A DNA stretch of 41,264 nucleotides. Origin: Candidatus Zhuqueibacterota bacterium (GTDB taxonomy: Bacteria > Zhuqueibacterota > Zhuqueibacteria > Zhuqueibacterales > Geothermadaptataceae). Where the stretch lies: contig WFTM01000484.1 of NCBI GenBank assembly GCA_015485525.1, positions 1 to 41,264 on the forward strand. The letters run 5' to 3'. Made by a program: the position numbers and the translations under genes. Under the pieces are notes generated by a model, which worked only from the letters and a program-made list of their open reading frames with translations, was not told where the DNA came from and searched no databases. Positions 10,250-33,096 of the stretch are shown in pieces (position 1 is the stretch's first letter; each line of letters starts with the position of its first letter).

Positions 10250-12379
10250 ATGTGTAAAAATCGGGTAATGGCTAAAACAGGGATGCTGCACACCATGCTC
10301 AGGAAGAGTTTGCTCCTGCTTCTTTTGATCCATCCATCCATGCTGACGGCCCGTCAGGCCTCCGGCAGTCATCCGCCTTTTGAATATCTGATCACGGTAT
10401 TCAGTGATCGCGGCATGCACCTCATCCAGCCGGATTACGGCTACCTCACCCTTTCGCCTCCGGGAGCACATCTGCTGGCACAGATCGTAAAAACAGGTAC
10501 CGGCGAGCAGCCCCCCTGGCTGCTGACAGAAACCGACCTGCGTGAAAAACAGCGGGTTTTATTTTATCAGTTTGAAAAAAACAGCCACTCCGAGGGGCCG
10601 AAGCTGGCGTTCTGGTCACAGCCGTGGGATGCCAATTCCGATGGCGATGTGTATGACCCCGGCGACTGGCTTCCCGCGGCTGTCTGGCAACAACGGCATC
10701 TGCCGGAGACGGGCGGGTTGCAGTGGAATCCTGCAAACGTGCGTGCGGAAACCCTGCGTCCGGTTGTTGCAGCCTTCGATCATTCACCCGCAGGGGATCA
10801 GCTTGCCGGAGGACGGTTGCATTTTACCGGCCCGAATGGTGCTGCTTACGCACGTACCGACTCATCCGGGAAGATTACTGCGCATTTTGAGACCATGCGC
10901 AGTCTCTGGCTGGCCGCAGACCTGCCGGTCACGCCGTTTTATGATGGCAGTGCACCGCTGCTGCGCGGGCAGCAGGAGCAGAATATCCGGCCATTCCAGA
11001 AGGCGATCATCACGCTTGCGCGCTGGCTCGACAGCGACCGCGATGGCCTGGTGCAGAAACGGGAAATCCGTCCTGTCAGAGATGCACGCAGCAAAAAGCC
11101 GGTGCAGTTTTTTGGCACAGTCGCAGTTGATATCCCCGGATGTGTGCGCTGCCATGCTTCTGAGCAGGCGAATGGAGAGCAGTATGGTCTGTGGAAAGCC
11201 GAGTTTACGTTCTGGAGTAAGTCCATCCCCGGGACCTCGGCTTATATGGCTAACCAGCGCGCTGCTGCTGTTTCGATTCTGGAGATTCATGACAGAAAGC
11301 ATGGAACGGATTTTCTCGCCCGATACGACGCTGCCGACCGATCCGGGGTTCTGCACACGCGCCTGGGCCGCTCTTCAGTTCTGTGTGCCGATTGTCATGG
11401 CAAGACAGCAGAACCGGTTGCTGTTTCTCTGCATAAAAGCCACCTGGGAGCGCTGCCGCGCGGGGATGTGTTTGGCCGGCCTGTGGATTGCCAAAGTTGC
11501 CACGCAGGCCATAAGCAGTCCGGCAGCCTGCTCGAGTATGCCCTGGACCAGGCCGGGCTATTCCGTGGCGGTGATATCCGTGAATACCGCGGCGGGCGTT
11601 TTCTCGGCCGGGATGTCCATGCCAATCCTGCGGCGCAGCGGGTGCTGAAAACGCGCTCTCATCTCACAGCGGCGGGCGAATGGCTGAAAGCGAACGTCAT
11701 GCTGGATGGCCGGGGTCTGTATTGCAGCAACTGCCACAATATGGCATCACAGCTTCTGGCGGTGAGTGATTCCCTGGAAGATGTACTCGAACTTCGCGGC
11801 CGGACACTGCGCGACAGGCCATTGCCGGAGCTCCTGGCCGGGTTGCGAAAGGCAGGTGGAGCAGAGTTCGATTCCTGGCAGGCACAGCAGTTTTTCGACC
11901 CTCTTGTCAGCGATACCGCTGCTGTGGCGCTGCCCTGGCTGAACAAAACCGGGTTGCTGAAAAGCCTGCCGCGCTGTGCAGACTGTCACCAGCCGCCGTT
12001 TGTGGAAAGCCTGGCTGGTATTTATCCTGAAGGTGGGAAAAAGGGCATGCTGGAGCGTATGAGTTTCAGCGCCGGGCATGCAGGCCTGGCCTGCAGTAGT
12101 TGTCACCAGAGTGCGCACGGGCAATACCCGGTGGCTGCAAGTGGCGTGGATCCTGTGACCCTCGAACAGGCACGCTCACTCAATCCGGATGGCTCACCCG
12201 GGCCGGTAACCTGCGCCGCGTGCCACGTAGTGGATTCCGAAGGTGTCCCCCTGAGCCTGCCGCCCGCTGTTCTGGCCGCTTTCCCGGCGCAGAGCTATCC
12301 GACGCGTTATGAAAAAGCTGTGGCATGGGCGCATACCCGGCGCAGTGCAGAGGAAAAGGGGAAAGGATCGCCCAGATGA
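10250..12379 (+). CDS. Exported heptaheme c-type cytochrome
   Basis: The product of up to 709 residues has seven CxxCH heme-attachment motifs at about residues 298, 379, 414, 492, 576, 615 and 655 (numbered from 10250). It would be an electron carrier or oxidoreductase outside the cytoplasmic membrane. A signal peptide is visible (RKSLLLLLLIHPSMLTARQASG), but the start is uncertain: ATGs at 10250, 10268, 10283 and 10298 are all in frame and none has a convincing RBS. The first 290 residues carry no heme motif and hold a DANSDGDVYDPGDW segment and a DSDRDGLVQKRE segment, both resembling EF-hand-like Ca loops. No other cytochrome or quinone-interacting gene is nearby, so its redox partner is unknown. 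It ends 10 bp before the convergent asparaginase gene. Confidence 0.88.
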   Translation: MCKNRVMAKTGMLHTMLRKSLLLLLLIHPSMLTARQASGSHPPFEYLITVFSDRGMHLIQPDYGYLTLSPPGAHLLAQIVKTGTGEQPPWLLTETDLREKQRVLFYQFEKNSHSEGPKLAFWSQPWDANSDGDVYDPGDWLPAAVWQQRHLPETGGLQWNPANVRAETLRPVVAAFDHSPAGDQLAGGRLHFTGPNGAAYARTDSSGKITAHFETMRSLWLAADLPVTPFYDGSAPLLRGQQEQNIRPFQKAIITLARWLDSDRDGLVQKREIRPVRDARSKKPVQFFGTVAVDIPGCVRCHASEQANGEQYGLWKAEFTFWSKSIPGTSAYMANQRAAAVSILEIHDRKHGTDFLARYDAADRSGVLHTRLGRSSVLCADCHGKTAEPVAVSLHKSHLGALPRGDVFGRPVDCQSCHAGHKQSGSLLEYALDQAGLFRGGDIREYRGGRFLGRDVHANPAAQRVLKTRSHLTAAGEWLKANVMLDGRGLYCSNCHNMASQLLAVSDSLEDVLELRGRTLRDRPLPELLAGLRKAGGAEFDSWQAQQFFDPLVSDTAAVALPWLNKTGLLKSLPRCADCHQPPFVESLAGIYPEGGKKGMLERMSFSAGHAGLACSSCHQSAHGQYPVAASGVDPVTLEQARSLNPDGSPGPVTCAACHVVDSEGVPLSLPPAVLAAFPAQSYPTRYEKAVAWAHTRRSAEEKGKGSPR

Positions 12380-32106: not shown

Positions 32107-33096
32107 TTACGGCACCTGCTGCCGCTTTGGTGCCGACCGTTTCGGCCGCGCATAGCGTGCCCTGGCTGCTTCTTCAAAACGTTTGAGAATATGTGCTACC
32201 TCGTCACTCGATTTGCGCACGCTGGTATCGAGTACGATAACCGATGCTTTGGCCTCAACACGATCGGCTTTTTTCTCCAGAGTGACAAAAGCCATTTCCC
32301 GACCACGGTCGCCCGGGCCGACCATGAGCATGCCACTGGCTGCATCGGTCTCGGTACGCATGGGCCTGCCCTCGCCACTGGAAAGAAAGAACAGGTCGAA
32401 ATCCTTGTACTGCTTTGCCAGTTTACGGGCTTCGGCACGCGGGCCGTGGAAAATCAGAATGCGGAAATCAACCTTTTCGTTATTAAATGCTGCGAGCGCT
32501 TTGTCGATTGTTTCCGCCACCGGCCCAATCCGGTAGTTGCGGAAGTAACCGTTATAGCGTTTGGAAATGGCCGACACCACGCCGATTTTAGCGCCGGCAC
32601 GTTTGATGACCTGAAACGGGCTCGTGATCGGTGCGCCGTCTTTGGTGGAGGCATTGCCGGTGAGGTAAACCGCCTTTTTCGGGCGCGGGCTTTTGAGCCA
32701 CTGAAAGGATGTGTCCGCAAGATCGCGCTTGCCGATCGCGATGAGATCGTATCCCAGTTCTTCCAGGGCTTCCCAGAGCATGGGTGTAAGCCAACCACGC
32801 CGCTTGCTGATAGACTCGCCCACATCACCGCCATCGACGAGCAGCAGGTCCGGGTAGAGTTTTTTCAGACTGTCGATTACTGTATATCGCCTGGCCAGAC
32901 CGCCACGCCTGCTGCCGCTTCAGCCACAGGGCAGGAAATAGCCGTGCGATGAGCTGCTGTACATGATGTGCAGCCGGACATCCTTGCCCTGTTTTGCCTG
33001 TCCCTGCATACCCGCCGCTGGGAGCAGAAAAATCAGCGCAAGAAATACAGTCGCATACATGCGTTTCTTCATCTTCATCACTTTGTTTCCGTTCAT
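32107..33096 (-). CDS. Candidate selenoprotein, UshA-like metallophosphoesterase-fold protein
   Basis: The frame from the ATG at 33096 (GGAG six bases upstream) to the stop at 32107 is open for 330 codons except for one TGA at codon 59 (32922-32920). The translation begins with a signal peptide (KRMYATVFLALIFLLPAAG) and reads HGYFLPCG-U-SGSRRGGLARR around the TGA. The same frame continues with LLLVDGGDVGES and YDLIAIGKRDL, as in 5'-nucleotidase/UshA-like proteins. In relatives I recall PCGC followed by GGLARR at this point, so the TGA stands where a Cys is expected. A hairpin resembling the fdhF SECIS lies at 32889-32908. The usual metal ligands are degenerate (SSHG for DTHG, GKRD for GNHE), so the protein may not be a nucleotidase; Cys57-x-Sec59 suggests redox chemistry (inference). 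Export to the periplasm is likely. A nonsense mutation is the main alternative. Confidence 0.8.
32889..32908 (-). promoter_or_regulatory. SECIS-like hairpin just after the in-frame TGA
   Basis: On the minus strand GCGTGGC-GGTCTG-GCCAGGC forms a seven-position stem with one G-G mismatch and the loop GGTCTG. The loop starts 18 nt after the TGA. In the E. coli fdhF SECIS, as I recall its sequence, the loop GGTCTG also starts 18 nt after the TGA, in the same codon register (Gly-Leu). This is the sort of signal that SelB recognises to insert selenocysteine. Confidence 0.8.

Follow-up and report, generated by a model that had tools for sequence, protein, structure and literature searches.

An in-frame TGA in a UshA-like gene

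We asked whether the in-frame TGA that interrupts a UshA-like gene on the minus strand of the window (the whole 41,264-nt stretch of DNA analyzed) encodes selenocysteine (Sec) under the direction of the hairpin downstream of it or marks a gene that is decaying. Comparison of the locus with its homologues makes it very probable that the TGA at 32922-32920 is a Sec codon, which would be directed by a SECIS with a GGUCUG loop in a UshA-like selenoprotein gene. The gene and its putative Sec codon are as follows.

32107..33096, minus strand: UshA-like selenoprotein gene, open throughout when TGA is translated as Sec (U); 329 residues and a stop
32920..32922, minus strand: in-frame TGA, putative Sec codon 59, opposite the second Cys of the PCGC/DCGC motif of Cys homologues

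The TGA at codon 59 is the only one in frame when TGA is translated as Sec. The motif around this position is GYFLPCGUSGSRRGGLARR, in which residues 56–59 form the PCGU of the PCGU/PCGC motif of the family NF041198. The TGA stands opposite a conserved Cys (CGU against CGC in the Cys homologues, one of which is a paralogue from the window genome), as in a selenoprotein gene, and occupies the aligned codon in 54 homologues from 53 other genomes. The genome of the window encodes a tRNA-Sec with the anticodon TCA, the SelB gene shares the contig with the UshA-like gene, and SelA and SelD are also present in the genome. The N-terminus of the protein is hydrophobic and resembles an export signal, and the product is probably exported.

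SelB, together with GTP and Sec-tRNA(Sec), would bind the GGUCUG-loop hairpin during translation and deliver Sec at codon 59, forestalling termination by release factor 2; both the binding and the insertion are what E. coli biology leads us to expect at this hairpin. The product would be a 329-residue UshA-like protein, probably exported, carrying a Cys-Gly-Sec (CxU) site that may act as a redox or metal-thiolate/selenolate site in place of a degenerate phosphoesterase center.

Fold of the hairpin and comparison with fdhF

The elements downstream of the TGA are as follows.

32909..32919, minus strand: AGCGGCAGCAG, the stretch from the TGA to the stem, near-invariant across the order in the codon-level alignment
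32889..32908, minus strand: upper hairpin of the predicted SECIS, GCGUGGC-GGUCUG-GCCAGGC, folding within published bSECIS limits
32908-32902, minus strand: 5' stem arm, GCGTGGC
32896..32901, minus strand: apical loop, GGTCTG, 18 nt after the TGA; GGT kept in 12 of 12 order members
32895-32889, minus strand: 3' stem arm, GCCAGGC

The first-pass annotation had placed a GGTCTG loop exactly 18 nt past the TGA on a seven-position stem and had likened both loop and distance to those of E. coli fdhF. The coordinates of the TGA (32922-32920) and of the loop (32901-32896) agree with this description, and the interval 32889-32922 that it gave is bounded exactly by the TGA on one side and the last base of the 3' arm on the other. 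The seven stem positions comprise six pairs and one G-G mismatch, and RNAfold gave ((.((((......)))).)) at −10.6 kcal/mol for the 20-nt hairpin. The published bSECIS limits are an apical loop of 3–9 nt, an upper stem of 4–16 bp, G in the first or second loop position, usually followed by G or U, a UGA-to-loop distance of 16–37 nt, and a minimum free energy of −7.5 kcal/mol or lower (PMC13188914). The window hairpin has a 6-nt loop on four contiguous pairs, one mismatch, and two further pairs; its loop begins with GGU, as in all the order members, and its spacing of 18 nt and its energy of −10.6 kcal/mol both lie within the limits. No SECIS match was obtained from Rfam at the gathering threshold or at E ≤ 10.

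The likeness to fdhF was confirmed on the MG1655 sequence (NC_000913.3), where the TGA is codon 140 and GGTCTG also begins 18 nt later, so that the loop G, G, and U are equally far from the TGA in both genes. The two stems differ: in the window hairpin, C-G closes the 6-nt loop and the G-G mismatch lies at the fifth position below it, whereas in fdhF a U is bulged out and the pair adjoining the loop is A-U.

The 11 nt of AGCGGCAGCAG lie outside the upper stem, and their codon choice is also near-invariant in the order, which the upper stem leaves unexplained. This stretch may form a lower stem or a contact with SelB or the ribosome.

Conservation within the order and expectation by chance

Of the 15 genomes of the order, 12 (11 besides the window genome) carry a UshA-like orthologue in which TGA stands at this codon. 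All 12 carry a hairpin at the same place with a GGT loop at +18, at protein identities to the window down to 31%. From the TGA through the hairpin, 33–39 of 39 bases are kept in ten of the order orthologues. Where two sequences share an amino acid, they also share its codon in 172 of 212 pairs at U+1 to U+13 vs 947 of 2058 at the other positions past residue 35. The top-ranked of the 286 twelve-codon windows all overlap the TGA-hairpin stretch, which is thus the stretch with the strongest synonymous constraint in the gene; the constraint is stated as a rank and not as a probability because the sequence pairs are not independent.

In two order members (L030 and L031), both stem arms are rewritten, AGC AGG CGT becoming ACG CGC CGC and CTG GCC AGG becoming ATC GCC CGG. 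In these two, the RNA still folds at this position, into a stem that is longer and has one bulged base, and GGT stays in the loop region. No strict covariation was found in the hairpin of the order because its pairs are almost invariant, and the evidence from the order consists of the constraint on synonymous codons and the single stem rebuilt in L030 and L031. Conservation at the RNA level is seen in this constraint and in compensatory changes in the hairpin of the sister clade described below.

The chance expectation was determined from 20,000 synonymous recodings with the peptide fixed and the codon usage of the window. GGTCTG fell at +18 in 9.5% of the recodings; it was combined with pairing at 6 or more of the 7 stem positions in 0.035%, and an equally stable fold was obtained in 3.2%. 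Under a looser rule that accepts any bSECIS-like hairpin, 60% of the recodings qualified; therefore, the mere presence of a hairpin means little. In regards to the whole genome, TGA-N18-GGTCTG gave 37 matches vs 29 in the reversed control and is mostly noise. Among the 30 matches examined, the stop TGA of ftsZ in the same genome (L121, C246:19171-19197) has GGTCTG at +18 on a stem with 7 of 7 positions paired. This was the best other match with a long upstream frame, and it was rejected as a Sec codon. The ftsZ hairpin is a chance look-alike, or is terminator-like, and would fool a SECIS scan based on the motif only. With a motif frequency near that of the control and such a look-alike at hand, conviction has to come from conservation; the TGA-N18-GGTCTG motif alone is suggestive but not proof. 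The earlier statement that the coincidence is unlikely by chance was thus too strong for the motif by itself.

A second hairpin outside the order

Beyond the order, 43 homologues (42 in the class and one elsewhere in the phylum) also have TGA at this codon, and the GGTCTG hairpin is absent from all 43. They carry another hairpin further downstream, CUGGCUC-GGC/GGA-GAGCCAG or variants of it, with the loop 28 nt after the TGA, or 25 nt where one codon is deleted. Among its 39 distinct sequences, 89.7% of the cells pair vs 83.5% in shuffled and 25–44% in slid controls. The compensatory changes that the first-pass annotation had proposed to look for in TGA homologues are present here: changes on both sides occur in 3 of the 7 pairs, in 16 cells vs 5.4 expected. 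RNAalifold retained the inner 4 pairs only, and the outer three are therefore less sure. The hairpin is thus conserved with the TGA inside the order but not outside it. Homologues with TGA and without the hairpin, which the first-pass annotation would have held against Sec, do exist; since they carry another covarying hairpin, they do not refute the Sec reading.

In the tree, the order members group together as a clade supported at 100/100, to the exclusion of all other sequences (the label cls27 denotes the TGA homologues outside the order, and the rooting is for drawing only). One SECIS exchange suffices because the order is monophyletic. The GGLARR peptide is common to both clades and different codons build the two hairpins, which suggests that the replacement proceeded through mostly synonymous changes, possibly by way of a state with both hairpins. 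On balance, we favor a reading in which one Sec codon is served by two sister-clade SECIS elements (at +18 in the order and at +25–28 elsewhere in the phylum), one having replaced the other, and in which the short, cytochrome-free form would be a third subfamily of UshA-like selenoproteins, with a redox center replacing the phosphatase site. Two features seem to be new, namely the short, divergent form and the exchange of SECIS by clade at one Sec codon; no exchange between sister clades at one codon was found in the open-access literature searched.

One member of the sister clade (L039) has Cys in place of Sec and has lost the hairpin, which is a Sec-to-Cys conversion. Together with the two hairpins on one Sec codon, it offers a naturally occurring test case for the movement and decay of SECIS elements in bacteria.

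Cys homologues and alternative readings of the TGA

Cys homologues that kept the hairpin equally well would have spoken for a coding origin. We examined ten distinct loci with Cys, and neither conserved hairpin was present in any of them. The paralogue in the same genome (G000:C101) has DCGC, and three Cys homologues (L059, L061, and L095) can form unrelated stable folds.

The most serious alternative, although very unlikely, is that the need to code GSRRGGLARR produces the hairpin incidentally and that the TGA is decoded by some other mechanism. Such a by-product is easily obtained, since some bSECIS-like hairpin arises in the 60% of recodings noted above. However, the exact codons are kept far beyond the needs of the peptide, the sister clade codes GGLARR differently and so makes another hairpin, and the Cys homologues drop both. 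Neither Cys homologues with the same codons nor TGA homologues with freely varying codons were found.

Even less probable is a decaying pseudogene or a TGA introduced by assembly error, with the hairpin present by chance. The perfect seven-position GGTCTG hairpin after the stop codon of ftsZ in this genome indicates that such hairpins do arise by chance, but the TGA recurs at the same codon in 53 other genomes with the frames intact on both sides, and the TGA-hairpin stretch has the strongest synonymous constraint in the gene. Conservation of the TGA in independent assemblies already refutes this explanation. Code reassignment or a suppressor that inserts another amino acid at the TGA deserves as little credence, and no support for it was found: ftsZ in the same genome ends in TGA, canonical tRNA-Sec, SelA, SelB, and SelD are present, and the aligned residue in the homologues is Cys. 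The first-pass annotation had argued for a SECIS and against decay, and this view gained support from the Sec machinery, the TGA in 11 order homologues and 43 further ones, the top-ranked synonymous constraint, and the Cys homologues without the hairpin. By all computable tests on the sequences, the window hairpin is a genuine SECIS.

SelD hairpins

The SelD gene of the window genome has an in-frame TGA at the site occupied by Sec or Cys in other SelD proteins, and a perfectly paired stem downstream presents a GGTC loop 17 nt after this TGA. GGU-type loops are therefore probably not confined to the UshA-like gene in this organism. The SelD hairpins of the order are lineage-specific: two genera have the GGTC loop at +17, and the other family has a hairpin of the GCCCAAC type (sets compared: L024, L172, L173, and L175 vs L168-L171, L174, and L185). 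SECIS turnover thus extends beyond the UshA-like gene. A change in SelB specificity was considered as the cause of the SECIS exchange, and the SelD hairpins were checked across the order and the class; because they vary inside the order, there is no simple co-switch with the SECIS of the UshA-like gene. In two order genomes (G010 and G011), SelD has the TGA but the UshA-like gene was unmatched, and it may have been lost there. In many members of the same class (L136-L160), there is an additional SelD that lacks the TGA and lies in open frames of approximately 730–810 codons, which suggests a SelD fusion protein.

Protein family and function

The window protein matched NF041198 (UshA_like_PCGU) over residues 21–313 with E = 6e-28 and 97.7 bits, below the cut-off of 275, and NF049981 (UshA_like_Sel_2) over residues 42–281 with E = 6e-16 and 58.6 bits, below the cut-off of 140. 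Mis-annotation of this selenoprotein is likely because gene callers stop at the TGA or start after it and because the scores fall below both curated models. The window protein shares the PCGU motif and the N-terminal UshA-like region with NF041198, but the match ends at profile position 305 of 519 and leaves the C-terminal multihaem region unmatched. Relatives from the same order match this profile in two stretches that include the cytochrome part; a cytochrome c554-type C-terminal domain is present in L032-L037 of the order and in some class members, whereas the window protein lacks this domain of its fused relatives. The protein resembles NF049981 in being a short single-domain UshA-like selenoprotein and differs from it in the motif, which is CxxU in that family (PMC13188914) and CxU here. 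Sec in CxU UshA-like proteins has been reported from marine metagenomes (PMC2398784), and the COG0737 UshA-like selenoprotein with the CxU motif is in current lists (PMC9312934, PMC13188914). Judged by its sequence, the window protein is a short, divergent relative of exported UshA-like selenoproteins already described.

Homology to the metallophosphatase domain of UshA 5'-nucleotidase and SoxB was weak but significant, and the structures of UshA and CD73 matched weakly. Compared with E. coli UshA, the catalytic N116-H117 is replaced by K-R, the Asn-His being lost across the selenoprotein group, and D41 and H252 are absent, whereas equivalents of D84, H43, and H217 are present. These losses make phosphoesterase activity of the UshA kind unlikely, and Cys57-Sec59 might instead have a redox or metal role. 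A single-sequence AlphaFold model of the protein had a pLDDT of 38 and was discarded.

Elsewhere in the window, a 709-residue open reading frame (10250-12379, plus strand) contains 7 CxxCH motifs and resembles cytochrome c7/c3, a multihaem cytochrome; it is the only frame in the window with at least two CxxCH motifs.
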